IMG/VR virus record: IMGVR_UViG_3300001533_002998
Location: 1 to 25,677 of that record
From: a virus
DNA length: 25,677 bases
Reading direction: 5' to 3' (one strand)
The notes under the pieces were generated by a model. That model was not told the origin of the DNA. It saw nothing but the letters and a program-made list of their open reading frames with translations, and ran no database searches. Position 1 is the stretch's first letter. Each line of letters opens with the position of its first letter. Both the position numbers and the translations under genes were made by a program. Below, piece after piece: positions 4,771 to 25,663 of the stretch.

Positions 4771-4772
4771 TT

Positions 4773-5894: not shown

Positions 5895-6058
5895 TTTACC
5901 TTTTCTTCCTTTTTAGCCTCTTGATACATTTTTCTAATTTCTCTAGCAATTAAATAATCAGTTCCCATTTTAAACCATCCTTCATCTACAAACATAGTTG
6001 ACCACTTTTCTATCGCATTTTTACCTTTTTTACCAATTCTAATAACAAATCTTTTCAT
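5891..6058 (-). CDS. Small basic hypothetical protein
   Basis: 55 aa, starting MKRFVIRIGKKGKNAIEKW and ending in a charged helix (REIRKMYQEAKKEEKVK). A longer start at 6073 exists, but the ATG at 6058 forms a TAATG junction with the methyltransferase stop and is the more likely start. Its stop overlaps the next GT gene start. No family recognised and no cysteine or membrane motifs. Its position inside the glycan cassette suggests an accessory role, but nothing in the sequence shows one. Confidence 0.6.
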   Translation of the reverse strand: MKRFVIRIGKKGKNAIEKWSTMFVDEGWFKMGTDYLIAREIRKMYQEAKKEEKVK

Positions 6059-6993: not shown

Positions 6994-8266
6994 AAGCCTC
7001 CTCAATAGCTGGGATAAGTTGATGTTTAGCAATATAATCTACATTAAACTCTTTTCTTAACTTAGTATTAGCTTTCAAAGACTTATTCTGATTCATTTCT
7101 GAAATTATCAACTTAGCTACATCTTCCAAGTATTTATCCTGACCTAACGGATATTGAGGCCTATCAACTAAAGAACCAAATCTAAAATATAAAGCATTTT
7201 CACCTGCAAAATCCCTCATGGCTGGAAAACTGTAATTAAGAATTAAAAGACATTTAGATGCCATTGCTTCTTTTAAAATCAAAGGTGAAGCCTCACTAAC
7301 CGAAGGGAAGATAAAGAGATTAGAAAGTTGAAACAAATCTGTCACTACTTTTCTAGGAACTCCTTGTTCATACTTGGGAGCATTGTGTAATGAAGTAAAA
7401 ATCAATTCTCTTCTTTCAACACCACAATCAGCAGCAAAACGATACATTTGTTCAATTTCTTCTTTTTGCTCTTGAGCATTAGCATGAGCATTGGGAACGA
7501 TAATACGAATAGAATTCCCCATTTTTTTAATGTAACTCATAATCCAAATAACTTTACTTAATTGTTTGCCATTATCATTCATTCTAGTTGTGGAAAGCGG
7601 GTAAACATCAATATAATCAGCTGACATTAAATCGTATTGTTCAATCAATTCTCTTGTAATCGGGTCAAAATCATAAAGTTCCCTAATATCCATCATATTA
7701 AAAATAGTTCTTACATCTTTAGGAAAAATACCAAACATCTCTGCAGCTCGAACAACATCAGTGTAATTAAGATAAATTAACCTTGAATTTTTAGGTAAGG
7801 TAAAAAGATTATCGTAAGGAGAACCATCCATTGTTGGTCTCAAAGAAGGAGCTGAATGTATCCAATGAAGCCATTTGATATGAGACAATCCTTCTTCAAT
7901 TCCTCGCCTCATTGCTTCATTGTAAGGAAGATAAGAATTAATGAAGATAATATCTTGAGTTAAGCAAACATCAATATCTTTCATATTTTCTTCCATCGCT
8001 TTTTTAGCTTTATTAACATCAGCTTCAAAATTCTTTAAATCACCCTTAGTATAAGGCTCTAAAATCAACTTGGGTAAAACTTTTCTGATTTCCACTCCTT
8101 TAGGAACTTTCTCATCATCTTCAAAATTCTCTAAAACAAACAAAACAGGTTCATACCCATATTTAACCAAAGCTATTAAAAGCTGTTGAGTAACAGAACA
8201 CAACGAAAAAGCTGGACTAAAATTTGAAAAGGTAGTTAAAATTCCCGTTTTAATTTTTTTATTCAT
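6980..8266 (-). CDS. GT-B glycosyltransferase, family 4-like
   Basis: 428 aa. The N-terminal half begins IKTGILTTFSNFSPAFSLCS, the glycine-poor start of a GT-B Rossmann domain. The C-terminal half has IIVPNAHAN, then LFIFPSVSEASPLILKEAMA, in which Glu325 and Glu333 form the EX7E signature of retaining GT4 enzymes that bind the nucleotide sugar. The domain ends with a helix returning to the N-terminal half (EEAYENL). No membrane segment. It is the first gene of the glycan cassette, starting two bases after the preceding small gene. The donor is unknown. Confidence 0.82.
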   Translation of the reverse strand: MNKKIKTGILTTFSNFSPAFSLCSVTQQLLIALVKYGYEPVLFVLENFEDDEKVPKGVEIRKVLPKLILEPYTKGDLKNFEADVNKAKKAMEENMKDIDVCLTQDIIFINSYLPYNEAMRRGIEEGLSHIKWLHWIHSAPSLRPTMDGSPYDNLFTLPKNSRLIYLNYTDVVRAAEMFGIFPKDVRTIFNMMDIRELYDFDPITRELIEQYDLMSADYIDVYPLSTTRMNDNGKQLSKVIWIMSYIKKMGNSIRIIVPNAHANAQEQKEEIEQMYRFAADCGVERRELIFTSLHNAPKYEQGVPRKVVTDLFQLSNLFIFPSVSEASPLILKEAMASKCLLILNYSFPAMRDFAGENALYFRFGSLVDRPQYPLGQDKYLEDVAKLIISEMNQNKSLKANTKLRKEFNVDYIAKHQLIPAIEEAYENL

Positions 8267-9427: not shown

Positions 9428-9724
9428 TCAAATATAGGCAATAGCTAATTTTGAACTTGTACCTGTTAAAGTCGCATAACAAGCAGTAGAAAAAACAATT
9501 GGTTTAACAAAAGAAATACTTACACTTCCATATTGAGGTGCTCTTAAAACCCATTTGGCTGTTCCAGAACCATCAGTAGAATTATCTAAAATCACAGTTG
9601 CCCCAGTCGCAGCCGTTCCACCATCTAAAGTAATGGAAGAAATAGCACAAGAAGCAGTTCCATTAACCTGACCACTTTCAGTTAAAACTTTCGAATTATT
9701 TTCTGTTTCTAAATGTATAATCAT
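9428..9724 (-). CDS. Small beta-rich probable virion protein
   Basis: 98 aa with alternating hydrophobic and Ser/Thr/Gly residues (ATVILDNSTDGSGTAKWVLR, GSVSISFVKPIVFST), as expected of an all-beta surface protein. No cleavable signal or membrane helix. It overlaps the stop of the preceding Ser/Thr-tailed paralogue and so is part of the same translational unit. A head decoration or fibre-associated role is inferred from position and composition only. Confidence 0.7.
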   Translation of the reverse strand: MIIHLETENNSKVLTESGQVNGTASCAISSITLDGGTAATGATVILDNSTDGSGTAKWVLRAPQYGSVSISFVKPIVFSTACYATLTGTSSKLAIAYI

Positions 9725-10062
9725 TATGCTCCTGTTGTTGTCGAACTTGAACTGGTACTAGTACTTGTTGACGAACTCGTTGAACTAGATGTACTTGAAC
9801 TTGTACTTGTTGAAGTCACCAAAGTCTCTAACAACCTTACCCAAACTGCTGTTTTTCCACTAGTTTTTGTTTGAACATAAAACATTCCCCGATAAAGCGT
9901 ACTCTTAATAAAAGCCATCTCCCCACCTCTCCATTCAATAATATCAGCATCAACATCAGTTGAACTAACATCATAATAATCATAAGGAGTTGATGGCAAA
10001 ACCGTCACGATTTTAGCGTTTGCTCCTAATGTATTTAATTCATCAAGTTTTGTAAGACCCAT
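9724..10062 (-). CDS. Ser/Thr-tailed virion-type protein, paralogue 3
   Basis: 112 aa. The globular part shares LDELNTLGANAKIVTVLPST, then WRGGEMAFIKS, RGMFYVQTKTSG and WVRLLETLVTSTS with the next two genes upstream. Residues from about 85 to the end are nearly pure Ser and Thr, ending STTTGA. This copy has the longest tail. A good ribosome binding site (GGAGAAT) precedes the ATG. The three genes are clearly tandem duplicates just downstream of the major capsid gene, so decoration protein or short fibre are the best guesses. Ser/Thr-only tails are natural targets for O-glycosylation. Confidence 0.78.
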   Translation of the reverse strand: MGLTKLDELNTLGANAKIVTVLPSTPYDYYDVSSTDVDADIIEWRGGEMAFIKSTLYRGMFYVQTKTSGKTAVWVRLLETLVTSTSTSSSTSSSTSSSTSTSTSSSSTTTGA

Positions 10063-10066
10063 ATTA

Positions 10067-10372
10067 TTATTCTCCTGTTGTCGTGCTACTTGAACTTGTA
10101 CTTGTGCTTGTAGTAGTACTAGTCGAAGTAGCTAATGTTTCTAATAATCTTGTCCAAATAGCCGTTGTACCACTAGTTGATACTTGAACATAAAGCATCC
10201 CACGATAATCACTACTACCTGTTTTCATAAAAGCCATTTCCCCGCCTCTCCACTCAGTTGAATCAACATCATTAGAAGCTACCCCGTAATATTGATACGG
10301 AGCTGTTGGTAAAGCCGTTACGATTTTCGCATTGGCACACATAGCATTTAATTCATCAAATTTTGTTACCAT
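10067..10372 (-). CDS. Ser/Thr-tailed virion-type protein, paralogue 2
   Basis: 101 aa. Same layout as its neighbours: FDELNAMCANAKIVTALPTA, WRGGEMAFMKT, RGMLYVQVSTSG, WTRLLETLATSTS, then a Ser/Thr tail of about 20 residues ending TTTGE. It differs from the other copies mainly in the loop after SNDVDS and in tail length. The ATG is preceded by GGAGAATAATA. The gene is separated from the others by only two to four bases, so the three are co-translated from one message. Confidence 0.78.
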   Translation of the reverse strand: MVTKFDELNAMCANAKIVTALPTAPYQYYGVASNDVDSTEWRGGEMAFMKTGSSDYRGMLYVQVSTSGTTAIWTRLLETLATSTSTTTSTSTSSSSTTTGE

Positions 10373-10374
10373 TA

Positions 10375-10701
10375 TTATTCTCCTGTTGTTGTTGAACTAG
10401 TACTTGTACTAGTACTAGTTGAACTACTTGTAGTAGAGCTTGTACTTGTACTTGTACTAGTAGCTAAAGTTTCTAACAATCTAGCCCAAAGAGCTGTCGT
10501 TCCACTAGTATTCAATTGTAAAAAGAATTGTCCACCATAACTTCCACTTTTAATGAAAGCTAATTCACCACCACGCCACTCTTGATTATTCGTATCATTT
10601 GAAGACACATTCCAATAAATCTCTGGCGAGGTTGGTAAAGCGGTAACAATCTTGGCGTTAGCCGTAATCGCACTAATGTTATCAAATTTTGTTGCACTCA
10701 T
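10375..10701 (-). CDS. Ser/Thr-tailed virion-type protein, paralogue 1
   Basis: 108 aa, the first of the three tandem copies after the capsid gene. FDNISAITANAKIVTALPTS, WRGGELAFIKSG, GGQFFLQLNTSG, WARLLETLATSTS, then about 27 Ser/Thr residues ending TTTGE. The globular part is well conserved among the three while the tail length varies, as expected if tails expand and shrink through the repetitive DNA that encodes them (ACTAGTACTAGTAC-type repeats). The product is presumably exposed on the particle. It follows a terminator-like hairpin at 10711-10771. Confidence 0.78.
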   Translation of the reverse strand: MSATKFDNISAITANAKIVTALPTSPEIYWNVSSNDTNNQEWRGGELAFIKSGSYGGQFFLQLNTSGTTALWARLLETLATSTSTSTSSTTSSSTSTSTSTSSTTTGE

Positions 10702-10801: not shown

Positions 10802-11719
10802 TTAGCTAGAATACTCAGTTGCGTCTCCTTGAGACCCCCAGAAACCTCTCCAGTCTGACCAACCAGCAGAAAATCTGACTCGGACTTTGTAAAGAGCCGC
10901 ATCAGAATCAAAATTAAAGTCGTTTTTAAATTCAGGTCGAATTCTCCAGAACCAATTTAGAGCTTTATTACGAGAATCAGCTAAAAACCAAGCTGTTGAA
11001 GAAGTAATATATCTCCAGAAAATGTTTTTGAAAACACCTTCGTAAATATTGACATCATTATTAGCTGTTCCAGGTCGTAGAGAAGAACCAGTCATAATTT
11101 GAATTGTCTTACGCAAATCAATTGGAGCAATAATTGTATCAGCTTTAAAGCTAACAACCTGTCCTTTATCATTTAGAGCTTTCTCCAAAGCTAGTCGCCC
11201 TGTTTCCAAGTTAGTTTCTGAAAAAACAATACTAGTTGAAGAAGCATTAGATTGTGAACTTCCACCATCAGCTCGAGTATGGTCAGTTGAACAAAGCGGT
11301 TTACCATCACCATAACTGGTGTAAGAAGTACTAAAAGCATTATTCAAAATATCAGCAGCCACATCTTCAGTCGTATAAACAACCGATTTTGCTAATGCTT
11401 TAGGCATTGCTGCGATTACATTATTCTGGTCATCTTCTACTAATTCCTGTGAAACTTTGAAACCTTTAGTATATTTCAAATGAGCATAAGTTGTCTTGTA
11501 CATTTTAACTGGGTCTTCATAATCTAAAGCTCCCAATTCAGAAGTTTGAACCATTTTACCAAAACCAGTAGTTGCTGAATCAACCTCAGAATCCTTACTA
11601 GAAGTTAAAACATCAAAAACCATCGGCATGACCTGTGGTTCATCATCATACCTGTCAAAGAATATCTTCCTTATGGAAGGGTCTAGTTCGTCTGCGAAAT
11701 TTCCTCTTATTGCTGCCAT
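10802..11719 (-). CDS. Major capsid protein, Mu gpT-like
   Basis: 305 aa. MAAIRGNFADELDPSIRKIF, the GKPLCSTDHTRADGG segment (compare GKPLFSxxHxN in gpT-like heads), the LNDKGQVVSFKADTIIAPID region, and a C-terminal WFWRIRPEFKNDFNFDSDAA segment are what I associate with the Mu F/gpT-like major head subunit, an HK97-fold protein. Length fits the family. Its place after scaffold and head proteins and well downstream of the portal is typical. The ATG has AAGGA about seven bases upstream and a GTTATAAT box 18 bases before it. Confidence is high for the role, moderate for the exact family. Confidence 0.82.
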   Translation of the reverse strand: MAAIRGNFADELDPSIRKIFFDRYDDEPQVMPMVFDVLTSSKDSEVDSATTGFGKMVQTSELGALDYEDPVKMYKTTYAHLKYTKGFKVSQELVEDDQNNVIAAMPKALAKSVVYTTEDVAADILNNAFSTSYTSYGDGKPLCSTDHTRADGGSSQSNASSTSIVFSETNLETGRLALEKALNDKGQVVSFKADTIIAPIDLRKTIQIMTGSSLRPGTANNDVNIYEGVFKNIFWRYITSSTAWFLADSRNKALNWFWRIRPEFKNDFNFDSDAALYKVRVRFSAGWSDWRGFWGSQGDATEYSS

Positions 11720-14061: not shown

Positions 14062-14350
14062 TCTTCTTTTTTTCTTCCATCTCGTCTAATTTCTTACCTG
14101 CTTTTTCAATTGCCCTTACAAAAGTTCTCAATCCAACCGCCTGTCCAATCAATTCAGCATGACGGGAAACAAAGTTAGGTAAAGTTTCATCTAATCTGAA
14201 AGATACTTTCTGTAAATTCAAGATGTATCTGTTTATCCACCGCTTGGCAATTGCCCATTCCACCTTCTCTTTCAAATTAGCCAAAACTTCCAACTCTTCC
14301 AATGGTGTTTTAATTTTTTGAGGTTTGTCTAAATCTTTTTTTGCCATCAA
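14054..14350 (-). CDS. Small hypothetical head-region protein
   Basis: 98 aa, mostly helical: TPLEELEVLANLKEKVEWAI, AKRWINRYILNLQKVSFRLD and a Lys/Glu-rich end. It lies between portal and transglycosylase, overlapping the portal stop by 4 bases and the next gene by 8. No family recognised. A structural or chaperone role in the head is only a guess from place. Confidence 0.7.
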   Translation of the reverse strand: MMAKKDLDKPQKIKTPLEELEVLANLKEKVEWAIAKRWINRYILNLQKVSFRLDETLPNFVSRHAELIGQAVGLRTFVRAIEKAGKKLDEMEEKKKNV

Positions 14351-16443
14351 ACTATTCCTTCAGTTTCTCTAGTTGGACCTACCATTATTCCTGGCATCGC
14401 CGCTTGAGCTTCACCTGCTTCTACACCCTGAGCTGGAGTTTGAGGTTGTCCACCTGCTTGGGGAGCACCTTCAGCTTCAGCCCCTCTCAATTCCTGAGCC
14501 TTGTTTTCACCTAAAATATGATAAACAAAGTTTTCAATAACACCGCTTTTTTGACTTCCCTGCTTGAATGGTTCAGAACCCATAAAAGCCAAATGAACTT
14601 CAGTATGAGCCCGATTGGCAAAAGCCGTTGGCTCAAGTTTATCACCCTTTAACATAATCTCGTTTTCCCGATTAGCCAATTCCAACAACTCTTCTTCATC
14701 AACCAATGGCGGTTTTTCTTCAGCCATCTTAAATTCTTCTGGTTCAAAATCATTAATCTCCATCATCGCATCAGCTAATTTACCCAAGTCATAATAACCA
14801 CTCTGGATTGCTCCCTGAATAACTGGATGCTGCATAAACTCATTGGTTTTTTGCTGAAGCAGAGGTTTGGAAACAGGGAAAGTTGGTTCAGCTGAAAGTT
14901 TGTAATCGTAACCGCCATAAGCAGGCGTAATCATCTCTGGTGAAACTTCAAAAAAGTGTTCCCCTTTTTCTTTCTTTTCAACCACTTTTCCTTCTCTGGT
15001 AAATTCCAAAGCAATATCAGTTGTCCGAATAGTACGATACTTCGCCATTTTTTGTTCACCAACGATTTTTTCTACTGTTGGCGTAGAATAAAATTGAATA
15101 ATATTGGGAACTCTCAAACGAACAATACCTGTCAAAAGCTGACGTGATAAAAGCCAAATCTTCATCTGTAAACTTTTCATTGTTGACTCTTTAAAAATAG
15201 CTGATTCCGTAGCTGTGCTTGAAGGCTGTGGCGATTGGATACCTGTTACTTCCCGCCCATCCTGCCTCAATAATTCTTCTTCCCTGTAAACAGAAGGATT
15301 AATGTCCCTGTATTCCAAAGGAACGATGGAATTACGTGGGTCATCAACCTGTAAGAATCTTGAGGGAGCAATAATCGCTTCTTCTTCATCCAAAGTTTCC
15401 CGATTGGAAACCAAAAACATCTTCCACAAATCCATATGCTGTCGGTCAATTTTCATTCTTCGCAAGGTGGTTAATTCATCCTGAATGGATTCCAACAAAG
15501 CTGGTTCGCCTTTAGCGTAAAATTTATCCAAACGGGGAACATCAGAACCTTCGGCAAAAGGCAATTGCTTGTGAGAAAAAGGATTCGGTCCATCTCTAAC
15601 CACCACATCATTAGCAACAATAATCAATTTGTCTGGTCGTCTAGCCCAATAAAACAAAACCTCAACCTGATTGTCTTTATCCATCCCTTCAGGTGGAGTA
15701 TAAAACTGGTAATTGTTCAAATCACCACCGCATTTAACATATTGAACCGCATTAAGAGGATTCCAAATCGGACCTTGAAAAGTTTCCCGAAAGGTATCAA
15801 GGTTCATAATATAGCGTCTAACAGCATCGTTAGCTTTGTAACGCCCCGTATTGATGGTTCTGGCCATCGGGTCAATGTAGAAATCCCAAAGACTAACATT
15901 CTCCCCGTAAACATCATTAAAATCATCAACATCCTTGGTTTCGTATTCTTCTTCCCCTTTTTCCAAATCAAACTTTTTCAAAACCCTAACCTGACGCCTG
16001 TCCTGCCAAAAATCTTCCTGCCAAATCGTTTTTCCTAAAATCAAATTTTGTTTCAAAGCAGAATAAAGCTGTAAATCACCATCACCAATTTCCCAAGTAT
16101 AATCTTTAATATAAGTTAAAACTTGAGCCCTAGGTTTGTCTTCTGGACCTCTGGCGACAATTTTCGGTTGGACTGTCTGGTCAACCATTTCTGCCAAAGC
16201 TCTTTCAACGATAGTCGTGGTAAAAGGCGGAGTAATGTTTGACTGCCAGTCATCGGAAGAACGGGATGGCCGCCAAGCCTCATAAGCCTTCTCCCATTTA
16301 TCCCACTGCGATTCAAAGGGACTGCGAGCCATCTTCATTTCAGCGTAACGGCGATAAGCCTTCTCCCTATCAAACTGGATTTTATCCGAAGGTTTGTAAA
16401 TCTTGTTAAGGTCGGCTTTGTCGTTTTTTCTAAATTCTAGCAT
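14347..16443 (-). CDS. Portal protein, large podovirus-type
   Basis: 698 aa, close to P22 portal length. The N-terminal SPFESQWDKWEKAYEAWRPS and FTTTIVERALAEMVDQTVQP regions, WDFYIDPMARTINTGRYKAN, EVLFYWARRPDKLIIVANDV and the QDELTTLRRMKIDRQHMDLW helix are typical of portals, the dodecameric ring at the head vertex through which DNA passes. The C-terminus is Gly/Gln/Pro-rich and likely disordered. It sits directly after the large terminase, as usual. The ATG has only a weak AGAG site and a GTTATAAT box ten bases upstream. Family from overall pattern, not from alignment. Confidence 0.83.
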   Translation of the reverse strand: MLEFRKNDKADLNKIYKPSDKIQFDREKAYRRYAEMKMARSPFESQWDKWEKAYEAWRPSRSSDDWQSNITPPFTTTIVERALAEMVDQTVQPKIVARGPEDKPRAQVLTYIKDYTWEIGDGDLQLYSALKQNLILGKTIWQEDFWQDRRQVRVLKKFDLEKGEEEYETKDVDDFNDVYGENVSLWDFYIDPMARTINTGRYKANDAVRRYIMNLDTFRETFQGPIWNPLNAVQYVKCGGDLNNYQFYTPPEGMDKDNQVEVLFYWARRPDKLIIVANDVVVRDGPNPFSHKQLPFAEGSDVPRLDKFYAKGEPALLESIQDELTTLRRMKIDRQHMDLWKMFLVSNRETLDEEEAIIAPSRFLQVDDPRNSIVPLEYRDINPSVYREEELLRQDGREVTGIQSPQPSSTATESAIFKESTMKSLQMKIWLLSRQLLTGIVRLRVPNIIQFYSTPTVEKIVGEQKMAKYRTIRTTDIALEFTREGKVVEKKEKGEHFFEVSPEMITPAYGGYDYKLSAEPTFPVSKPLLQQKTNEFMQHPVIQGAIQSGYYDLGKLADAMMEINDFEPEEFKMAEEKPPLVDEEELLELANRENEIMLKGDKLEPTAFANRAHTEVHLAFMGSEPFKQGSQKSGVIENFVYHILGENKAQELRGAEAEGAPQAGGQPQTPAQGVEAGEAQAAMPGIMVGPTRETEGIV

Positions 16444-16473: not shown

Positions 16474-18927
16474 TCAAGCAGGATAAATAGACCTTTTGAG
16501 CTTAAAGTTTCTCCTCTCTTTAAACTTTGGCGGAAAAGTCAATTCCAACTGGGAAGCCAGAGCATCAACCATGTCATCATTCTTGCCTTTGGGAAAACGC
16601 CTGATTTCGTCTTCAAGGTAATCGTTGTTAGCCACCTGCTTACAATGAAAAACCGAGCCAGTTTCGTATCTTGGTTCTAAACCTCTAATCCTCTGGTCTT
16701 TAGTTTTATCACTATGGGTCAACTCTTTCAAGGGAATAAAGTGGTTTTGCTTTTTCATCTCCTCGTAAGCAAAATATTGGAGGGTTTTCTGAAAGGCGGT
16801 TGTTTCAATGCCAACACTGATTGGTTTCCATTTGGAATCCCAGTAAAAGAGCTGGTCCAAAAGTCTTTTCGGCTGGCATTTCTCCCGCCACAAATCCAAA
16901 ATGTACCAGTTATTCATTTTATCCACTCCAACGCAAACCATGGCTGAATAGTCAGCTTCCTTCTTCTCACTGATGGCAGGGTCAACGGTAATAAACCTGT
17001 TTAAATCCACGCCTGTTAAATCCGTTTTCTCGTAATATTTAAAATCGAATTTAAAAACAGCGTCTTCAGCCAGAATCGGGTCTAACATGTACTGAGCTGC
17101 AAAGTGAGATGAACCTTGTTGTCTTTTCAATCCATCTAGAACATCCCAGCTTAGACGAGCAGGAAAGAGTAGTTTTCCTTGTCCCCATTCACCTTCGTAA
17201 GCAGGCATTTTCAAAACCTTAAAATCATCCAGGATGTTGTTTTCCTTGTCTTGTATCCAAGCGTAAAGGTCGGAATAATGCCAGGTAGTGTTATGGACAA
17301 CAAATCCTTCAGCAATAAAACTATGCTCACCTTCAACTGATAAATCATAAACTTCCTGTTCACCAATCTTCTTAATTGACCTTACAAATGTTTCTTCAAT
17401 TTCTTTAGGTTTATTTTTATCAAAATAAATGTAACAATGATGCGTATTAGACAAAATCTCATATTTTGAATGTGGAGCTTTTATGAATCTTTCTCTTGAA
17501 GAAATGTTATTTACTCTTAGTCCTGTGATAATTGCTAACCTTCTTATACCCTCAGCTAATTCTTTACTTGAAACTTCATAAGCAAACGTTCTTGTTCCAA
17601 CCCTACTTTTCCAAACATGATGTCCACTCTTCTCTTTTTTTATTTCCCAACCATCAGCATCAAGAAAACCCTGAATAAATTGTTTTCTTATTTCTGGATT
17701 CTGCTCAAAAATAAACGAAGGAACTTTTTTATTATGTGCTCCTCTTTCCAAACCATGTTCCAAAAGCCATCTACCTAATTCAGCCGAAGTCGTTACCCAA
17801 TTACCGTTCTTACATAAAAACTTACAACCAAAATTCTTCTCGAAAATATCTTTTATCTTATGGTTTCTATCATCATAAACACCCATGGCTATTCCAACAA
17901 CGTATCTTAAACTACCTTTCTGGTTAGGATGTAAAGTTACCCAACCATCACCAACCATATAACCTAAAGCCCACGATAACTCTTCACTAATCTCATTCTT
18001 ACCATCTTTTTTATAATGATAAAAAGAAATTTTATCTCCCTTTTTTAGTTCTTCCATTTTTACCCAAATGTTATTTCTTAAAAAGGGATGATTTTTAGTT
18101 CCTATTATCTTAGAATTATTTGTTCTTAATTCATAAACTTCAGAAACTCCTTGAGAAACATTAGCTGTAACTACTTTATTTCCTTTCCTTGTCTTTACCA
18201 TCTCTCCAGCGTTTATATCTTCAATGTTTTTCCAACCACCATTTGCCATTAAAACTTTAGTTCCAGAAACGAAACAACCAATGATGATGACTTGTTTATG
18301 ACCACCAGCCTTGCTGTCAACCAAGTCCAAAGTCCCTTTGTAAAAGTTAATCACCTTCTCTATCTGTTCCCGAGTGGTGATGTTTTTGTCGTTGACCATG
18401 TCATCCAAAAGAGCCATATTGTAGTGAGAACCAACAACGTTGGTGTCAGCCCCAAAAGCGGAAACAGTCGGGTCTTTCTGCTCGTAAGACTTTTCCCTAG
18501 CCACGGTAATCCTGTTTTCCCGCCAGCTGTCAGCCATTGTCGCCAAATTACCAAAAAGGTCAATGAAGGTTTCGTTCTTCTCCAGATGGTCTTTAACCTG
18601 TGATAAAAATTGACAAGCCATGGGATAAGTCGCATTGGCAATCAAAATCCTTTCGTTTGGGTTTTGAGCTATTCGCCACAAAGTATAGCCAACAGTTACG
18701 ATAGAAGATTTGAAAGAACCTCGGGGAAGAAGGATAAGCAGTTTTTTCTTGTTGACGTTGTCCTGAACAAAATTACAAACCTGGCGATGCAAAGGCTCGT
18801 AGATGTCAGGCCATTTCAAAACATCTCGGTTAAACTCGTAAAAGTGGGTTAGGTAATATTGAATCTTAGCCTGTTTAACCGCCTCTTGGGTCTTTTCTAT
18901 CTGGTCAATGATTTCTTTTTTATCCAT
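16474..18927 (-). CDS. terL: Large terminase subunit (TerL) interrupted by an intein
   Basis: 817 aa precursor; about 488 aa after removal of the 329-aa intein (residues 218-546). The ATPase half has Walker A LLPRGSFKSS (66-75) and Walker B MALLDDM (171-177). After splicing, VIIIG joins TTWHYSDL, the GTxWHxxDL motif that couples ATP use to DNA movement. The nuclease half carries FITVDPA (Asp649), VGIETTAF (Glu708) and KNDDMVDAL (Asp784/785/788). The protein packages DNA into heads with the small subunit. A weak AAGAAAG site precedes the ATG, which lies in a 17-base tandem duplication. Confidence 0.95.
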   Translation of the reverse strand: MDKKEIIDQIEKTQEAVKQAKIQYYLTHFYEFNRDVLKWPDIYEPLHRQVCNFVQDNVNKKKLLILLPRGSFKSSIVTVGYTLWRIAQNPNERILIANATYPMACQFLSQVKDHLEKNETFIDLFGNLATMADSWRENRITVAREKSYEQKDPTVSAFGADTNVVGSHYNMALLDDMVNDKNITTREQIEKVINFYKGTLDLVDSKAGGHKQVIIIGCFVSGTKVLMANGGWKNIEDINAGEMVKTRKGNKVVTANVSQGVSEVYELRTNNSKIIGTKNHPFLRNNIWVKMEELKKGDKISFYHYKKDGKNEISEELSWALGYMVGDGWVTLHPNQKGSLRYVVGIAMGVYDDRNHKIKDIFEKNFGCKFLCKNGNWVTTSAELGRWLLEHGLERGAHNKKVPSFIFEQNPEIRKQFIQGFLDADGWEIKKEKSGHHVWKSRVGTRTFAYEVSSKELAEGIRRLAIITGLRVNNISSRERFIKAPHSKYEILSNTHHCYIYFDKNKPKEIEETFVRSIKKIGEQEVYDLSVEGEHSFIAEGFVVHNTTWHYSDLYAWIQDKENNILDDFKVLKMPAYEGEWGQGKLLFPARLSWDVLDGLKRQQGSSHFAAQYMLDPILAEDAVFKFDFKYYEKTDLTGVDLNRFITVDPAISEKKEADYSAMVCVGVDKMNNWYILDLWREKCQPKRLLDQLFYWDSKWKPISVGIETTAFQKTLQYFAYEEMKKQNHFIPLKELTHSDKTKDQRIRGLEPRYETGSVFHCKQVANNDYLEDEIRRFPKGKNDDMVDALASQLELTFPPKFKERRNFKLKRSIYPA
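17290..18276 (-). mobile_element. LAGLIDADG-type intein inserted in terL
   Basis: Codes for residues 218-546 (329 aa). Splicing blocks are clear: block A starts CFVSGTKVLMANGG (Cys1); block B reads GTKNHPFL; block F reads EVYDLSVEGEHSFIAEGF; block G ends VVHN, followed by Thr as the +1 extein residue. Between them are two LAGLIDADG helices, LSWALGYMVGDGW and FIQGFLDADGW, each with an acidic residue, so the homing endonuclease looks intact. Insertion is exactly inside the GT of the GTxWH motif. The coding bases are more AT-rich than the flanking terL exteins, consistent with separate arrival. Confidence 0.95.
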
Positions 18928-21084: not shown

Positions 21085-21113
21085 TTGACAAGATATGACA
21101 AGTATGATAATAT
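21085..21113 (+). promoter_or_regulatory. Main rightward promoter
   Basis: TTGACA (21085-21090), 17 bases, TAATAT (21108-21113), with TATGA just before the -10. Perfect -35 and near-perfect -10. Its sequence resembles the promoter at 24711-24739 (shared TTGACAAG, ACAAG and TATGATAA), so both may form one phage promoter class. The expected start is near 21120, at the base of an 8-bp hairpin. Confidence 0.82.
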
Positions 21114-21365
21114 CTAAAGTAGATAGTAAGACAGAACTATCTAAGCACATTGAAAGCCAAGAGGCTAAGCCGAAGAGAGGACAAGCTATTATAAAACGCT
21201 TTGCTTCGTATTGTTTAGCCTCTTGTTAAGCAGGTTAAAACTGAAGACAACATAATAAAATGTCTAGTTGGTGAGATAATTTCAAAAGTCAGACCGCTTT
21301 GACTTGCTTAATAAGGAAAATAAAGTTATTAGCACATTTAAAAACTAGTCAGAAAGCGAGGTAAA
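21114..21365 (+). promoter_or_regulatory. Structured 5' leader of the rightward operon
   Basis: About 245 bases without a gene. It begins with a perfect 8-bp hairpin TAGATAGT/ACTATCTA (21120-21127 with 21136-21143), which would cap the 5' end of the mRNA. Next is an 11-bp stem CAAGAGGCTAA/TTAGCCTCTTG (21158-21168 with 21215-21225) that encloses nested CGAAG/CTTCG and AAGC/GCTT stems. A third hairpin AAGTCA/TGACTT follows near 21290. This is too much structure for chance. It may be a stabilising or regulatory leader; no known riboswitch was recognised. Confidence 0.6.
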
Positions 21366-21545
21366 ATGACAGAAGAAAAAAAGAAAAGAATGTTTGAAAA
21401 TATCTATGACTTAATTAAGGGTGGAAACTTTGAGGAGGAAGCAAAAAAAGAATTGAGAGGATTTATCAAAAATAAGCATATAGAATGGGATGGAGATAAT
21501 AATACTATCTCATTGGGAAAGTATTTTAAGTTTAAGTTAGTTTAA
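21366..21545 (+). CDS. Small hypothetical protein, first gene of rightward operon
   Basis: 59 aa: MTEEKKKRMFENIYDLIKGG, an acidic/basic helix (FEEEAKKELRGFIKNK), then two likely strands ending GKYFKFKLV. A GCGAGG site stands just before the ATG. No family recognised. As the first gene behind the main promoter it should be expressed early and strongly, which in phages often marks a host-takeover or anti-defence function; that is inference only. Confidence 0.7.
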   Translation: MTEEKKKRMFENIYDLIKGGNFEEEAKKELRGFIKNKHIEWDGDNNTISLGKYFKFKLV

Positions 21546-21554
21546 TTTTTTATC

Positions 21555-21585
21555 TTGCCTCTTGTTTGACTAGGACAAGGGGCAA
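21555..21585 (+). promoter_or_regulatory. Intergenic hairpin 1
   Basis: TTGCCTCTTGT (21555-21565) pairs with ACAAGGGGCAA (21575-21585) over 11 bp with one T-G wobble and a nine-base loop. No T-run follows, so it is not an intrinsic terminator. It lies between the first gene and the boxA-like site. Confidence 0.65.
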
Positions 21586-21600
21586 CATTAAGAGATTAAA

Positions 21601-21614
21601 GCTCTTTAACAATT
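21601..21614 (+). promoter_or_regulatory. boxA-like antitermination site
   Basis: GCTCTTTAACAATT is identical over 14 bases to the boxA region of the E. coli rrn leader, where NusB-S10 binds to make RNA polymerase ignore terminators. It lies in the leader of the 120-aa gene, 46 bases before its ATG. Most of it is also part of the 5' arm of a 26-bp stem (21605-21630 with 22046-22071). No phage antiterminator protein was recognised nearby, so host factors would suffice. Confidence 0.6.
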
Positions 21615-22071
21615 AAAAACTGGAGGCGGAAATCCTACTGAAAGGAGGATTAAACGCTTATGTATAACAAAAAGAAGCTAATGGAAGTTTATCAAGAAGC
21701 TAAGGGTGATAATAGTTATTATAGCTTTGATAAATTCATTAAAGACGCCAAAAGCTATTTAAAAGATATTAAAGCCGAAAAAGTCATTGCTTCAATGAAA
21801 GTCAGCCGAAGCGGTATGACAAGACGCTTTAATACTCAGCATTATAATATGCTTTTGAATATCTGTTATAACCAAAAATTTAGTTGGGACGAGGTAAAAG
21901 TTGGCGGTTGTGGAATGGATATGTGGTGGTATTTACTATTTACGACTTGCGAGAGATTGACGGATACTCAAAAAGATAGCTTTAATTACAATTCAGCTAG
22001 TAGTTATCAAACAATTCTGTAAAGTAAATTATCTTTTTATTTTAATCCGTCTTCAGTTTTTAATTGTTAAA
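21605..22071 (+). repeat. 26-bp inverted repeat flanking one gene
   Basis: Bases 21605-21630 (TTTAACAATTAAAAACTGGA and on to GGCGGA) pair with 22046-22071 (TCCGTC... to ...TTGTTAAA) without interruption: 24 Watson-Crick and two G-U pairs. The arms lie just before and just after the 120-aa gene at 21660-22022, so the RNA would loop out this whole gene, as pre-16S rRNA is looped out in rRNA operons. Both differences between the arms keep pairing as G-U, which points to selection on RNA rather than DNA. Confidence 0.8.
21660..22022 (+). CDS. Hypothetical phage protein looped out by a 26-bp stem
   Basis: 120 aa. IKAEKVIASMKVSRSGMTRR, then NQKFSWDEVKVGGCGMDMWW and LLFTTCERLT. Proteins with the ASMxVSRSGMTR and VGGCGMDM patterns are, as I recall, scattered through phages and plasmids without a known role; the conserved Cys and Met-rich loop could form a binding site. 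An AAAGGAGG site lies 11 bases before the ATG and can partly pair with AATCCT upstream (21631-21636), so translation may be damped until the RNA unfolds. The gene lies just after the boxA-like site. Confidence 0.8.
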   Translation: MYNKKKLMEVYQEAKGDNSYYSFDKFIKDAKSYLKDIKAEKVIASMKVSRSGMTRRFNTQHYNMLLNICYNQKFSWDEVKVGGCGMDMWWYLLFTTCERLTDTQKDSFNYNSASSYQTIL

Positions 22072-22086
22072 TGAAAGGAGATTAAT

Positions 22087-22218
22087 ATGAATAAATACGA
22101 AATACAATACAAAAATGGTAAAAAGATAATAGTTGAAGCGAAAACAGCTCTTGAAGTAATCAAGAGATACGACTTATGCACTAAAGAGAATATGTCAACA
22201 AAGTTAAAACAATTTTAA
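22087..22218 (+). CDS. 43-aa hypothetical protein
   Basis: MNKYEIQYKNGKKIIVEAKT then ALEVIKRYDLCTKENMSTKL and KQF. It reads as two beta strands and a helix, like a tiny ferredoxin-half or a small binding domain. AAAGGAG stands eight bases before the ATG, just after the 3' arm of the 26-bp stem. No family recognised. Confidence 0.68.
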   Translation: MNKYEIQYKNGKKIIVEAKTALEVIKRYDLCTKENMSTKLKQF

Positions 22219-22233: not shown

Positions 22234-22698
22234 ATGAACCAACAAGCAAGAAATTGGAAAGCTATTAATAACAAAGCCATTGTCAACAACATTGAACAAG
22301 TTTTTAAAAGCAATGACATTAATAAATTAAATAAGCCTACTTATCAATTTGTGATGAATTTAGGCGGATTTATAGCTCATTATGACTTATACGGATTTCA
22401 AGACCATTATCAAGATTTAAGAGATTTTGCTAGAGATTTGCTTGATAGTTGTACTGAAAATGACGCTAATTATGAGCTAGACGATGATTTTATTAAATGG
22501 TATGGCTTAATTTATTGCCAAAGTAAAAAAGACGCAATAAATGGCATAAGAGAAGTAGTTTTAAAATATAAAAATGATGTTTCTTCTTCTTGTGAAAGTG
22601 AAGATGAGAAGAAATTAAATAAAATTATTGCTCTAGCCAACGAAGTTAAAAGAAGAAACGACCCAGCAACGACAAGAGAGTTTTTAAAGGCGATTTAA
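22234..22698 (+). CDS. Hypothetical protein, mostly helical
   Basis: 154 aa. WKAINNKAIVNNIEQVFKSN, VMNLGGFIAHYDLYGFQDHY, LRDFARDLLDSCTENDANYE and a Lys/Glu-rich end. The FIAHYDLYGF stretch, with its His and Tyr, is reminiscent of small phage proteins of unknown function. AAAGGAGG stands close to the ATG. No catalytic motif recognised. Codons and AT content match the neighbours. Confidence 0.78.
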   Translation: MNQQARNWKAINNKAIVNNIEQVFKSNDINKLNKPTYQFVMNLGGFIAHYDLYGFQDHYQDLRDFARDLLDSCTENDANYELDDDFIKWYGLIYCQSKKDAINGIREVVLKYKNDVSSSCESEDEKKLNKIIALANEVKRRNDPATTREFLKAI

Positions 22699-22705
22699 TT
22701 TTTTC

Positions 22706-22729
22706 TTCTGCTTCTTTATAGAGGCAGAA
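22706..22729 (+). promoter_or_regulatory. Intergenic hairpin 2
   Basis: TTCTGCTTC, loop TTTATA, GAGGCAGAA: nine pairs including one T-G wobble at the same place as in the hairpins at 23842 and 24331. It follows the stop of the 154-aa gene and precedes the next ribosome binding site, with no T-run. Confidence 0.65.
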
Positions 22730-22759
22730 ATAAGAAGTTAAGGAAAGGAGGTAAAAACT

Positions 22760-23059
22760 ATGTTAAATATCAAAGTTTATAATATGACTAGCTCAAACGG
22801 CAATAAAGTTGCTAATCAATTTATTATCCATAGTGGTAATAAAGCATATTTTCAAAGCTATGAAAGCGTAATTGCTAAGACTAGCAAGCCAGTAATAGCC
22901 AACGGAAAATATATCAAGCCTGAAATGTATCTTGATAAAAATAAATGGGATTACTCAAGGACAATAGGAAAATATCGCAATCAATTTTTAGGGGAAACAA
23001 AGAAAGAAACAGAAGCAAAGATTAAAAGCGGACAATACAAGCTAGTTAATCTTAACTAA
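22760..23059 (+). CDS. Small conserved-type phage protein (possibly DUF8033-like)
   Basis: 99 aa. LNIKVYNMTSSNGNKVANQF, FQSYESVIAKT, then WDYSRTIGKYRNQFLGETKK and a Lys-rich end. The VYNM...VANQF, FQSY..vIA and WDYS.T.gKYR..FLGE motifs form a pattern I recall from small proteins of phages and integrative elements, perhaps DUF8033; the name is uncertain. The role is unknown. AAAGGAGG stands close before the ATG. Compact beta-rich fold likely. Confidence 0.78.
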   Translation: MLNIKVYNMTSSNGNKVANQFIIHSGNKAYFQSYESVIAKTSKPVIANGKYIKPEMYLDKNKWDYSRTIGKYRNQFLGETKKETEAKIKSGQYKLVNLN

Positions 23060-23106
23060 TCTTGTTTAGAGCTTCAAACAAGGCTTTGAGGCTCTTATAG
23101 AAGATT
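23058..23106 (+). promoter_or_regulatory. Intergenic hairpin 3
   Basis: AGAGCTTCAAA (23068-23078) pairs with TTTGAGGCTCT (23085-23095), eleven pairs with one T-G wobble; an outer stem AATCTT/AAGATT (23058-23063 with 23101-23106) extends it. It begins inside the stop region of the 99-aa gene and is followed by A-rich sequence and the next ribosome binding site. Confidence 0.65.
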
Positions 23107-23132
23107 AAAAAAAAGAAAGGAGGACAAATAAA

Positions 23133-23273
23133 ATGAATAACGAAACTTATGAAGCATTAAAAAAGACTATGCACCATTGTGAATATGGCGGTGCAAATGA
23201 TAAAGAGTTTTGGGATAACTTTCACAAAGTTGAAGATTGGATTGATGAAGTTGCTAAAGAATATAAAGAATAG
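23133..23273 (+). CDS. 46-aa hypothetical protein
   Basis: MNNETYEALKKTMHHCEYGG then ANDKEFWDNFHKVEDWIDEV and AKEYKE. A helical, acidic little protein with a central HHCEYGG turn. AAAGGAGG lies ten bases before the ATG. No family recognised; too small for domain assignment. Confidence 0.7.
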   Translation: MNNETYEALKKTMHHCEYGGANDKEFWDNFHKVEDWIDEVAKEYKE

Positions 23274-23304
23274 TTAAAAGTTAAAAGAAAGGAGGTGAAA
23301 TAAA

Positions 23305-23829
23305 ATGGGACTAGATATGTATTTTTATAAGAAAACATATGTTGGTAATAAATGGAAAAGCCCAAAAGAGCTAGTTAAGATTGATGTTAAAGGTGTCAAT
23401 CAAGCGAAAGTTGTTGATATTAGCGAAGAAGTTGGCTATTTGAGAAAAGCTAATGCCATTCATCTTTGGTTAGTTGAGAAAATTCAAGATGGGAATGATA
23501 ATTGTGCCGAGTATTATTTTAGCCACGAAAAGATAAAAGAACTATTGGATTTGGTTAATAGAGTTTTGGAAGCTTCTATCCTAGTAGAAGGAAAGATTAA
23601 CAATGGGGTTCAGTATAGCAAAGATAAAGAAAAAATACTTTGGGCAAAGGGTAAAGTTATCAAGAACCCAAAAGTAGCTCAAGAGCTATTACCAACTGGC
23701 AGTGGTTTTTTCTTCGGCTCAACGGATTATGATGAGTATTACATCAAAGATTTGGAAGAAACCAAAAATATACTAGAAGAAATGCTTAGTGATGATACTG
23801 CCGACTACCATTATCAATCAAGTTGGTAA
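23305..23829 (+). CDS. Conserved-type phage protein starting MGLDMYFYKK
   Basis: 174 aa. MGLDMYFYKKTYVGNKWK, VDISEEVGYLRKANAIHLWL, VEKIQDGNDNCAEYYFSHEK, FFFGSTDYDEYYIKDLEETK. This layout (MGLDMYL start, GYLRKANAIHxWF core, FFFGSTxYDExYxxDL near the end) is one I recognise from many phage and prophage small proteins, all of unknown function. The conserved His and acidic residues might bind a ligand. A very strong AGAAAGGAGGTGA site precedes the ATG. Length is normal for the group. Confidence 0.85.
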   Translation: MGLDMYFYKKTYVGNKWKSPKELVKIDVKGVNQAKVVDISEEVGYLRKANAIHLWLVEKIQDGNDNCAEYYFSHEKIKELLDLVNRVLEASILVEGKINNGVQYSKDKEKILWAKGKVIKNPKVAQELLPTGSGFFFGSTDYDEYYIKDLEETKNILEEMLSDDTADYHYQSSW

Positions 23830-23833
23830 TTTG

Positions 23834-23869
23834 ATTGTTTCCCTTGCTTCTTTATAGAGGCAAGGATAA
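23834..23869 (+). repeat. 36-base repeat, copy A, with hairpin 4
   Basis: Identical over 36 bases to 24323-24358. It contains CCTTGCTTC, loop TTTATA, GAGGCAAGG (nine pairs, one T-G wobble). Flanking TTTGATTG (23830-23837) and CAATTAAA (23871-23878) lengthen the stem by eight more pairs. It sits between two genes, with the next ribosome binding site just after. Confidence 0.8.
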
Positions 23870-23894
23870 GCAATTAAAAGAAGGAGGTGAAAAA

Positions 23895-24323
23895 ATGACG
23901 AGGGCAAATTTAAATTTTGTCTATGATGACAAGGGGAAAGAAACCATTTTATATTACTATCAAAATGGCGACCAGTATCCAAGAGGGATAAGAGACTTTT
24001 ATCATATTCTTGATTGGCTCAATGATGAGAATAAATTTAATGCTAAAGGATTTAGAGAATGGTTAGGAGCTAATTATAAAGAGACCAAAGCTATTGCTTA
24101 TAAAAATGGCAATATGACTTTAGTTTCTAATTATGAGCCAACAGAAATCCCAGCAAAGCCAGAAAAAAAGACTTTTACAATTATGGGAGATTTGACAGAT
24201 TATAGTTATCTTTTTGACTCAATTCATAATAAGGTAAAAGTTTTAGAATGGGAAGAAACAATTTTTGAGGGCACAAGGCAAGAGTTTTGTAAGTGGTTAA
24301 AGAACTATAAAGAGGAATTTTAA
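23895..24323 (+). CDS. Hypothetical protein
   Basis: 142 aa from the ATG at 23895, chosen because AAGGAGGTGA stands directly before it; an upstream ATG at 23835 lies inside the intergenic hairpin and has no such site. MTRANLNFVYDDKGKETILY, QYPRGIRDFYHILDWLNDEN, then YKETKAIAYKNGNMTLVSNY and FTIMGDLTDYSYLFDSIHNK. Alternating strands and helices suggest a two-part alpha/beta fold. No family recognised. The stop overlaps the second copy of the 36-base repeat. Confidence 0.78.
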   Translation: MTRANLNFVYDDKGKETILYYYQNGDQYPRGIRDFYHILDWLNDENKFNAKGFREWLGANYKETKAIAYKNGNMTLVSNYEPTEIPAKPEKKTFTIMGDLTDYSYLFDSIHNKVKVLEWEETIFEGTRQEFCKWLKNYKEEF

Positions 24324-24358
24324 TTGTTTCCCTTGCTTCTTTATAGAGGCAAGGATAA
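24323..24358 (+). repeat. 36-base repeat, copy B, with hairpin 5
   Basis: Identical to 23834-23869, again placed between a stop codon and the next ribosome binding site. The hairpin CCTTGCTTC/GAGGCAAGG is extended here by TTTAATT (24319-24325) with AATTAAA (24361-24367). The outer pairs differ in base from copy A but still pair. Confidence 0.8.
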
Positions 24359-24381
24359 ATAATTAAAGAAGGGAGGAAATT

Positions 24382-24552
24382 ATGAAATTGTTAAAAGATG
24401 TTATTGAGTATCTTAAAAACAGAGAAGAGATAAACGCTAATTATGGTTATGCCTTGAAAAATGGCTATGCTAATGATGAAACTTATAATTGGCGACAACG
24501 TCTAGATTACTGGCATCAATGTTTGGCTTATGAACCAAAAGAGTTAATATAG
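24382..24552 (+). CDS. 56-aa hypothetical protein
   Basis: MKLLKDVIEYLKNREEINAN, YGYALKNGYANDETYNWRQR, LDYWHQCLAYEPKELI. Helical with many Tyr, Trp and Asn residues. AAGGGAGG stands before the ATG. The stop codon runs into the next ribosome binding site (TATAGGAGGTGA), so the following membrane peptide is translationally linked. No family recognised. Confidence 0.7.
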   Translation: MKLLKDVIEYLKNREEINANYGYALKNGYANDETYNWRQRLDYWHQCLAYEPKELI

Positions 24553-24565
24553 GAGGTGATGAATT

Positions 24566-24670
24566 ATGAAAAACTTTTTGATTGATTTAATTTTAATGAT
24601 TGGTGTTTGTCTTTTTATAGGCTGGTTTTTTATGTTTCCCTTTATTGATTGGGCGGTTAAGTTTTGGTAA
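24566..24670 (+). CDS. 34-aa single-pass membrane peptide
   Basis: MKNFLIDLILMIGVCLFIGW then FFMFPFIDWAVKFW. One strongly hydrophobic helix (about residues 4-28) with a basic N-terminus and aromatic C-terminal end. A perfect AGGAGGTGA site precedes the ATG. Such micro-proteins in phages can be holin-like, superinfection-exclusion or membrane-toxin proteins; the early-type location argues against a holin. Function cannot be told. Confidence 0.68.
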   Translation: MKNFLIDLILMIGVCLFIGWFFMFPFIDWAVKFW

Positions 24671-24710
24671 AAGTCTAGGCGGTTGGAGTTTTTAAAACTC
24701 AAATTACCTC

Positions 24711-24739
24711 TTGACAAGCATTACAAGATATGATAAAGT
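24711..24739 (+). promoter_or_regulatory. Second rightward promoter
   Basis: TTGACA (24711-24716), 17 bases, TAAAGT (24734-24739), with TATGATAA across the -10. It shares the -35, an ACAAG in the spacer and TATGATAA with the promoter at 21085. A small palindrome GAGTTTTTAAAACTC (24686-24700) lies just upstream. It would boost the zinc-ribbon gene and those after it. Confidence 0.65.
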
Positions 24740-24762
24740 TTAAAGAAAGGAGGTGAAATAAA

Positions 24763-25152
24763 ATGAAAAACAAAATACCAAGTTTTAAAGAAGCTCAAAA
24801 AATTGTCGGTTTAGATAAAAAGATAGTTTATTGCCCCATTTGTGAAAGAGGCTATCTTTTAGAAGAGGAAAAAGAAAAGATAAAAGAAGTCGGTTGTTGC
24901 TGGAGTTGTTGGGTAAAAGGAACGTTATCACAACAACTGGCTGATAAACAGCCTTATGCTACAGAAAACAAGTTTTGTTCTGAGTGTGGAACGGAGTTAG
25001 AGGAAGGATTTGACGAAGATTGGGACTTTGACGAAGAAGGTCAGCACTTTGTTGTTTTCCCTTATCTTTATTGTCCAAGATGTAAAGAAAGAGTCTTAAC
25101 TCATAAACCAGAAACTTATGTTAATGACGCAGGAGAAACCTTACCTTTTTGA
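24763..25152 (+). CDS. Double zinc-ribbon protein
   Basis: 129 aa. First Cys cluster: IVYCPICERGYL with GCCWSCWVKG; second: KFCSECGTEL with LYCPRCKERVL. Each pair of CxxC knuckles can hold one zinc ion, so two ribbons are likely, separated by an acidic stretch (EEGFDEDWDFDEEGQ). Such ribbons bind nucleic acid or act as adaptors. A strong AAAGGAGGTGA site precedes the ATG, and the second rightward promoter lies just upstream, so it may be expressed separately. The partner is unknown. Confidence 0.75.
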   Translation: MKNKIPSFKEAQKIVGLDKKIVYCPICERGYLLEEEKEKIKEVGCCWSCWVKGTLSQQLADKQPYATENKFCSECGTELEEGFDEDWDFDEEGQHFVVFPYLYCPRCKERVLTHKPETYVNDAGETLPF

Positions 25153-25197
25153 TTAGACGTGGGGAGATAGAAATTTATTTCTCTCTCCTCGCCTAAT
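25152..25197 (+). promoter_or_regulatory. Intergenic hairpin 6
   Basis: ATTAG...GGGGAGA pairs with TCTCTCC...CTAAT around an AATTTA loop; about 18 pairs with two or three mismatches. It starts right at the stop of the zinc-ribbon gene and ends 16 bases before the next ATG. No T-run follows. Confidence 0.6.
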
Positions 25198-25213
25198 TAA
25201 AGAAAGGAGAAAA

Positions 25214-25663
25214 ATGAAGAAATATAAATTAACTAAAGAAACTAAAACAGAATACGGAATTAAACTTTACCGCATTGAAGCTCTAAGGGACTTTGGTAAT
25301 GTGAAGAGAGGAGAAAAAGGTGGTTGGATAGAGAAAGAGGATAATTTAAACCAAGAAGGTGATGCGTGGGTTTATGGTAATGCGTGGGTTTTTGGTAATG
25401 CGGAGGTTTTTGGTAATGCGGAGGTTTATGGTAATGCGAGGGTTTTTGGTAATGCGGAGGTTTTTGGTAAGTTAAAACTTATCGGTGGCTATTTTTACCA
25501 TACCAAACGAAAGACCGAAGAAATAGAAAAGGTTGAATTAAGTGAAAATTACGAAATCCTTTGTAGCGAACCAAAACTGGAAGAAGAGGAAGATGATGAT
25601 TTATCAGGTGAGGAAGTAGAAGTTAAGATTAAAGGAAAAACCTATAAAGCAATTATTCAATGA
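25214..25663 (+). CDS. Hexapeptide-repeat (left-handed beta-helix type) phage protein
   Basis: 149 aa. The N-terminus YKLTKETKTEYGIKLYRIEA, LRDFGNVKRGEKGGWIEKED is a pattern I know from many phage proteins that carry these repeats. Residues about 50-85 are six repeats of G-[ND]-A-x-V-[YF], like rungs of a left-handed parallel beta-helix, encoded by six 18-bp units. A charged C-terminal part follows (EEEEDDDLSGEEVEVKIKGK). Their function is unknown; the repeat can change length by slippage. AAAGGAG precedes the ATG. Confidence 0.8.
   Translation: MKKYKLTKETKTEYGIKLYRIEALRDFGNVKRGEKGGWIEKEDNLNQEGDAWVYGNAWVFGNAEVFGNAEVYGNARVFGNAEVFGKLKLIGGYFYHTKRKTEEIEKVELSENYEILCSEPKLEEEEDDDLSGEEVEVKIKGKTYKAIIQ
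25361..25468 (+). repeat. Six tandem 18-bp repeats
   Basis: Units of the form GATGCGTGGGTTTATGGT / AATGCGGAGGTTTTTGGT follow one another exactly in frame, six times, inside the gene at 25214. The near-identity of DNA, not only protein, indicates recent expansion. Confidence 0.85.

Follow-up and report, generated by a model that had tools for sequence, protein, structure and literature searches.

Why the message of one small phage gene should be enclosed between two sequences that pair with each other over 26 positions, with a boxA element on the upstream side, is the question raised by this locus. The window (the whole stretch of DNA analysed here) is a virus record of 25,677 bases with a G+C content of 34.8%, and is likely a fragment. 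We propose, as the probable explanation, that a leader and trailer unit like that of an rRNA operon has been placed around one early phage gene.

The presumed early operon of the window

Terminase, portal-like and major head genes lie on the minus strand (Table 1), and an operon of small genes with mostly strong ribosome sites runs on the + strand from about 21085; it is presumably the early operon. The first promoter-like site would open this operon, on the basis of a consensus whose matches are overall no more frequent in the window than in shuffles. A family search with the 59-aa ORF upstream of the boxA-helix unit gave no match, and the structure predicted for the enclosed 120-aa protein is poor (pLDDT 42.5).

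The structural half also holds a sugar-related cluster (50-8266), which encodes glycosyltransferase-like proteins together with asparagine-synthase, UDP-glucose-dehydrogenase and methyltransferase domains. Three adjacent genes of 112, 101 and 108 aa (9724-10701) look alike and have Ser/Thr-rich C-terminal tails.

Table 1. Coordinates of the features of the window.
Feature	Position	Strand	Basis or remark
Major head protein	10802-11719	minus	
Portal-like gene	14347-16443	minus	
Terminase	16474-18927	minus	
Promoter-like site TTGACA-17-TAATAT, TG ahead of second hexamer	21085-21113	+	consensus scan, 10/12 matches
Two strong leader hairpins, overlapping edges	21158-21225, 21221-21316	+	folding, z -4.4 each
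59-aa ORF, upstream of boxA-helix unit	21366-21545	+	ORF list
Hairpin h4, 25 pairs, directly abutting boxA	21541-21600	+	folds; gap z -5.9, 0/200 shuffles as stable
boxA GCTCTTTAACAATT	21601-21614	+	14/14 match to E. coli rrnB boxA
5' (leader) arm of 26-pair helix	21605-21630	+	pairing search, shuffles, equilibrium fold
Hairpin AATCCT...AGGATT, predicted to bury the Shine-Dalgarno site (21643-21648) of the 120-aa gene	21631-21652	+	fold prediction
Enclosed 120-aa gene, phage protein of unknown function	21660-22022	+	weak match to phrog_12365 around GCGMDM
3' (trailer) arm of 26-pair helix	22046-22071	+	pairing search; ends 3 nt upstream of next gene's Shine-Dalgarno site
43-aa ORF, next after 120-aa gene	22087-22218	+	ORF list
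Intergenic hairpin h5, 21 pairs in 49 nt	22694-22742	+	fold
Intergenic hairpin hA	23057-23107	+	fold
Intergenic hairpin h6, 21 pairs in 49 nt, h5 geometry	23830-23878	+	fold
Intergenic hairpin h6b, near copy of h6	24319-24367	+	fold
Second early promoter-like site TTGACA-17-TAAAGT, TG ahead of second hexamer	24711-24739	+	consensus scan
Intergenic hairpin h7	25148-25201	+	fold

A 26-pair helix encloses the 120-aa gene

The sequence-only reading had described 26 positions of uninterrupted pairing, two of them G-U, between arms 415 nt apart that lie just outside the 120-aa gene. Recomputation gave the same helix, with 24 Watson-Crick and 2 G-U pairs, and placed the frame (21660-22022) between the two arms (21605-21630 and 22046-22071). 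It is the longest pairing run of the window, the runner-up being a run of 21 pairs that includes 6 G-U, and when the whole window was dinucleotide-shuffled 256 times and pairs were sought within about 1 kb, the maximum run was 22 and the mean 17.4. The minus strand of the window has no run of at least 20 pairs; both G-U pairs turn into mismatches there, which breaks the run, and the pairing therefore belongs to the transcribed RNA. Runs of this length were also absent from the controls: the control loci L004-L029 (445 kb, both strands counted) contain no run of 22 or more pairs with a loop of at least 100 nt, T7, HTVC021P and ANMV-1 contain none of 20 or more, and ct2G2228 has one 20-pair run in which 9 pairs are G-U. 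An equilibrium fold computed for 21540-22100 predicts these 26 pairs with a mean probability of 0.96.

boxA, the abutting hairpin and the likeness to rRNA operons

The overlap claimed between the 5' arm and boxA is real, 10 bases being shared (21605-21630 against 21601-21614). This boxA was scored against the E. coli rrnB form, on the assumption that the host has the same form. Only 0.05 matches with at most one mismatch are expected by chance. The match looks more independent than it is, because the TTTAACAATT part of boxA is similar to the AU-rich TTTAAT...ATTAAA that makes up the outer stem in this phage's other hairpins. With h4 ending at 21600 and boxA starting at 21601, the hairpin occupies the position that boxB has in rrn leaders.

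The same measurement was applied to the E. coli rrnB leader, in which boxA lies at -143, a hairpin is seen in the sequence directly upstream of it and an unbroken helix of 26 pairs starts 12 nt into boxA. In the window the helix of 26 pairs runs from boxA +4 and has its partner at +445. The two thus share the order of hairpin, boxA and 26 unbroken pairs that begin inside boxA and close beyond the product; they differ in that the window helix starts 4 nt rather than 12 nt into boxA, has about 400 nt of mRNA inside it where rrnB has 16S rRNA, and is accompanied by no second boxA in the window. The window has no Rfam match, and the enclosed product is an open frame of 120 aa, not rRNA. The unit would work like an rrn leader and trailer, yet it is not an rRNA operon. 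The likeness to the pre-16S stem with its upstream boxA is stronger than had been claimed, given the hairpin, boxA and 26-pair helix of rrnB and the covarying units of Vibrio podophages described below.

Nut sites of lambdoid phages have boxA followed by the boxB hairpin and require the N protein. They resemble the window in that boxA is located in a phage early leader; unlike them, the window has its strong hairpin upstream of boxA, not downstream. No N-like gene was matched among the window proteins scanned (two scans of ten proteins each).

For rrn operons, passages of PMC10250234 place the RNase III site in the leader-trailer helix, overlapping boxC, and state that the antitermination complex is thought to keep the leader for pairing with the trailer. 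Occurrence of boxA upstream of non-rRNA genes in bacteria is reported in PMC5725501, in passages that describe no leader-trailer helix there. In the titles and abstract openings of the open-access papers found, no leader-trailer helix around a phage mRNA is described.

Intergenic hairpins and a possible T7-type punctuation

The early operon has 12 gaps, nine of which exceed 50 nt. On the + strand seven of these nine are structured with z at or below -3.2, none of 200 shuffles being as stable, and in each of the seven the fold of the minus strand is weaker. Such a structure is missing from two of the nine, namely the second-promoter gap (z -1.6) and 22023-22086, where the 3' arm lies and the sequence does not fold locally (z -0.3). 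The hairpins h5, h6 and h6b share a span of 49 nt, 21 pairs and a common loop, and their differences are compensating, so that pairing is kept; these pairs were read from separate folds, a single MAFFT alignment of six hairpins being too poor for pair counts. Each of h5, h6, h6b, hA and h7 (22694-25201) lies upstream of a ribosome site, and they are likely processing sites. A role as terminators was considered and rejected, no U-run being found by eye 3' of them on the + strand. The h5/h6 loop was also used as a probe of IMG/VR; it retrieved two GC-rich loci that look integrase-like by eye and were taken as chance.

The T7 gaps ahead of genes 0.3, 0.5, 1, 1.1 and 1.3, which we take to be RNase III cut sites, also fold as hairpins. 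Cutting of T7 RNA by RNase III is cited in a passage of PMC5371410. As in T7 early mRNA, the window hairpins stand in early-operon gaps a short distance upstream of ribosome sites; unlike T7, which has no run of 20 pairs or more, one of the putative sites of the window is long-range and has a whole gene in its loop. The gap that follows the 120-aa gene has the trailer arm but no local site, and the partner of this arm sits upstream of the gene.

These observations are the ground for the main rival explanation, in which the operon has T7-type punctuation only, with one RNase III hairpin for each larger gap, a split site after the 120-aa gene and a boxA that is a chance match. The structured gaps, with the 3'-arm gap and the second-promoter gap as the exceptions, the uniform geometry of h5, h6 and h6b, the similar folding of the T7 gaps and the end of the 3' arm, which adjoins a Shine-Dalgarno site as the hairpins do, all agree with it. 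The 5' half of the split site would lie upstream of the gene, and a chance boxA would derive from the common outer stem. However, punctuation of this kind predicts neither boxA nor the hairpin abutting it, and the combination of boxA and helix recurs in other phages. We consider it unlikely, at perhaps one chance in a handful.

The ribosome site of the 120-aa gene

In the predicted folds the Shine-Dalgarno site of the 120-aa gene is buried in the AATCCT...AGGATT hairpin, to which the 3' portion of the 5' arm would add further pairs until the 3' arm is transcribed. Neither this burial nor the processing-type hairpins of the operon figured in the sequence-only reading of the locus. The computed cost of opening the site is 8.2-8.7 kcal/mol over three fold windows, the highest among the 12 early genes; the other 11 are predicted to require at most 7.0 kcal/mol, and at most 5.7 in two larger fold windows. 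With the helix formed the cost is predicted to fall from 8.4 only to 6.5 kcal/mol, and to 3.7 for the loop without its arms. Helix formation and cutting would thus partly loosen the local structure over this ribosome site; passages of PMC5371410 describe the opening of a buried site by RNase III in lambda cIII and adhE.

The costly ribosome site could also point to translational control by pairing of the 5' and 3' UTRs, in which the state of the loop determines how accessible the ribosome site is, with turnover of the message by RNase III. A precedent is the icaR mRNA of Staphylococcus aureus, in which, according to passages of PMC3868564, pairing of the two UTRs forms an RNase III substrate, covers the Shine-Dalgarno site and depends on a short UCCCCUG motif. 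In both cases the two ends of the message of one gene pair with each other, and the RNase III substrate that has been shown for icaR would be expected in the window. Unlike icaR, the window has a helix of 26 pairs that ends at 21630, 12 nt upstream of the Shine-Dalgarno site, and a 3' arm that does not pair with that site; the helix is predicted to relieve the site, not to block it. Control of the icaR type is accordingly an improbable account of this locus.

Relatives of the window genes and the suggested mobile cassette

The suggestion that the arms are the terminal inverted repeats of a mobile gene cassette gained no support. Inverted repeats of 26 bp on both sides of one gene, spaced at cassette size, are what such an element, or an invertible segment, would show. 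However, no recombinase or transposase was recognised in two scans of ten window proteins each (a recombinase may lie outside the window, because the window is a fragment), no copy of the gene was found elsewhere in IMG/VR or the named phages and none of the arm in IMG/VR or the GTDB genomes, and both differences between the arms are G-U pairs on the transcribed strand. A cassette is in our view very improbable.

In these searches the 120-aa protein had no relative in IMG/VR and none in named phages at E values up to 1, and none was found for the 154-aa protein. The terminase has one relative (32%), and the 99-aa protein has 25 (L005-L029), none of which carries another window gene by tblastn. 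No relative of the 120-aa gene, the terminase or their neighbours shares the helix. A 22-mer carrying the arm had no match in IMG/VR or GTDB genomes, and a 19-mer from boxA and the arm had 15 genome matches, none with a 16S motif in its locus. A chance inverted repeat without function would fit the lack of conservation in any relative, but it is refuted by the sequence statistics, since 0/256 shuffles reach 26 pairs and gene borders, boxA and hairpin coincide with the arms, and its probability is close to nil.

One of the 19-mer matches lies in Lampropedia hyalina (L045), near a contig end and with a hairpin-like repeat before it; it does not overlap the part of the start of this organism's 16S contig that was compared. 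This match may be an rrn leader, and no conclusion here is drawn from it.

boxA-helix units in other viruses

IMG/VR was scanned for two boxA words, the second scan yielding at least 80 loci. At each site 46 nt from inside boxA were tested for pairing with the stretch 90-700 nt downstream and compared with shuffles of that stretch. From 102 boxA sites, including the window and rrnB, 11 were removed for short downstream sequence and repeats were also removed, so that 57 viral sites remained. The controls were 422 anchors placed at random in these loci, scored in a run without the window and rrnB that kept 58 sites.

A helix with p≤0.05 was found, among the matches listed, at 10 of the 57 non-redundant boxA sites versus 30/422 control anchors (Fisher 0.013), and one with p≤0.005, again among the matches listed, at 4/57 versus 5/422 (Fisher 0.014). 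Scores of 33 or more were reached by at least six of the 57 sites, counted from the 25 best by p, against 7/422 controls (Fisher 0.0019). For boxA sites outside long frames the excess among the matches listed is marginal (6/30 against 11/142 controls; Fisher 0.051). Individual cases include L136, where 16 pairs (2 G-U) follow boxA and enclose two 57-aa ORFs; L070, where 16 pairs after boxA enclose 365 nt without an evident gene; and L128, Vibrio phage VEN, with a helix of 31 positions, 5 of them mismatched, that starts 4 nt into boxA like that of the window. Rfam gave no match in L070, L123 or L136.

Two further loci that rank high in the boxA test, L091 and L116, were set aside because the pairing there is of another kind, joining the start of an HNH-type gene to its own coding sequence. 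In L116 (boxA at 2923, +) and also in L091, the start region of this HNH-endonuclease-like gene, as read from its translation, pairs about 400 nt downstream, and such pairing may shut off its translation.

Tandem units of Vibrio podophages

VEN is a lytic podophage of the Autographiviridae, and a set of Vibrio phages was assembled around it (L199-L211: VEN, VP505, R25D, R24D, VP-HS15, MGD2, R15Z, Vp670, phiVP140, D530, Vc1, 15E36.1 and phi-A318). Each of these 13 phages, VEN and 12 more, has two to four boxA-like sites. The trailer that pairs with the RNA directly after boxA lies 189-366 nt downstream, in many cases shortly upstream of the next hairpin and boxA. The units stand among early promoters and small genes, and in most of them the helix covaries.

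Seventeen units (16 distinct arm pairs) were chosen by the core TAGGCT/AGCCTA, 15 of them from 37 boxA-like sites and two (D530 and MGD2) added by hand; the first VEN unit and the Vp670 unit, both with long helices, were left out, the core being absent. Across the 17 units 95.0% of cells are paired, a figure that includes the 6 columns of the core, which pair by construction, are invariant and lie outside the double changes. Double changes occur in 15 of the 26 columns and amount to 66 cells, a count that overstates independent changes, since each cell stands for a sequence rather than an event and the phages are relatives of one another. When the partner is shifted by 1 to 3 positions, pairing drops to 23-44% of cells, and double changes to at most 6 columns and 12 cells. 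In the five phages that have two units with different helices, an arm pairs with its own partner at 23-26 of 26 positions and with the partner of the other unit at 14-17. The 16S and 23S helices likewise each prefer their own partner.

By reading of the annotation tables, at least one annotated CDS is wholly enclosed in 10 of the 17 units; there is none in R24D, 15E36.1, both VP-HS15 units, one Vc1 unit, one R15Z unit (where a CDS starts within the arm) and VP505 (which has no annotation). A sigma-70-type promoter-like site (TTGACA-17-TAAGAT/TAATAC) overlaps the trailer in most units; the 3' arm of the window, unlike the Vibrio trailers, shows no such site. This overlap would account for a conserved trailer, but it would leave the leader-arm changes that match those of the trailer unexplained.

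The units of VEN, phi-A318, MGD2 and their kin thus resemble the window in having boxA, a leader arm, often a small early gene and a trailer arm. They differ from it in being tandem and in having trailers that overlap promoter-like sites, and no sequence homology to the window was seen.

A proposed route for the early message

For the rRNA-like leader and trailer unit that we favour, we infer antitermination with loading of Nus factors, cutting by RNase III and a timing of translation, in the following order. Host RNA polymerase would start at the early promoter and transcribe h4 and then boxA, where NusB/S10 would be loaded and transcription made Rho-resistant. The segment 3' of boxA would be kept until the sequence it pairs with, downstream of the gene, has been transcribed, at which point the 26-pair helix would close. 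Cutting of the helix by RNase III would then free the 120-aa message from its neighbours and give the next gene a clean 5' end beside its ribosome site. The sequence-only reading had likewise proposed that the mRNA would be excised or protected as a unit. Until the helix forms and is cut, the ribosome site of the 120-aa gene would stay buried in local structure.

The recurrence of this frame in other phages points to a shared way to express early genes. In its general form, the proposal is that early phage mRNA segments each carry boxA and a leader-trailer helix, so that the host machinery for rRNA antitermination and processing transcribes them without Rho and excises them as units; we put this forward tentatively, at somewhat less than an even chance, and within it the window would be an independent case, with one gene, of the device seen as tandem units in the Vibrio podophages. 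A leader-trailer helix is commonly regarded as an rRNA feature. If phages frame protein genes in this way, the joint role of boxA and helix can be asked about apart from ribosome assembly, and the question is opened whether RNA polymerase with NusB/S10 keeps the leader arm for a distant partner. The proposal, if true, also suggests how phages without a recognised N protein carry early transcripts past Rho. A boxA with a helix that starts within it is a search rule for further units.

Other features of the scanned loci

The 365 nt between boxA and trailer in L070 (2484-2848) contain little C (146 G, 109 T, 72 A, 38 C), a composition that would make this RNA a weak Rho target. A 13-pair helix after boxA, apparently non-coding, is common to the four loci L093, L101, L110 and L123. 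The 149-aa gene of the window has an internal 18-base tandem repeat (25358-25470) that weakly matches the YdcK beta-solenoid repeat, and repeats of similar appearance occur in an ORF that follows boxA in L093 and L123.
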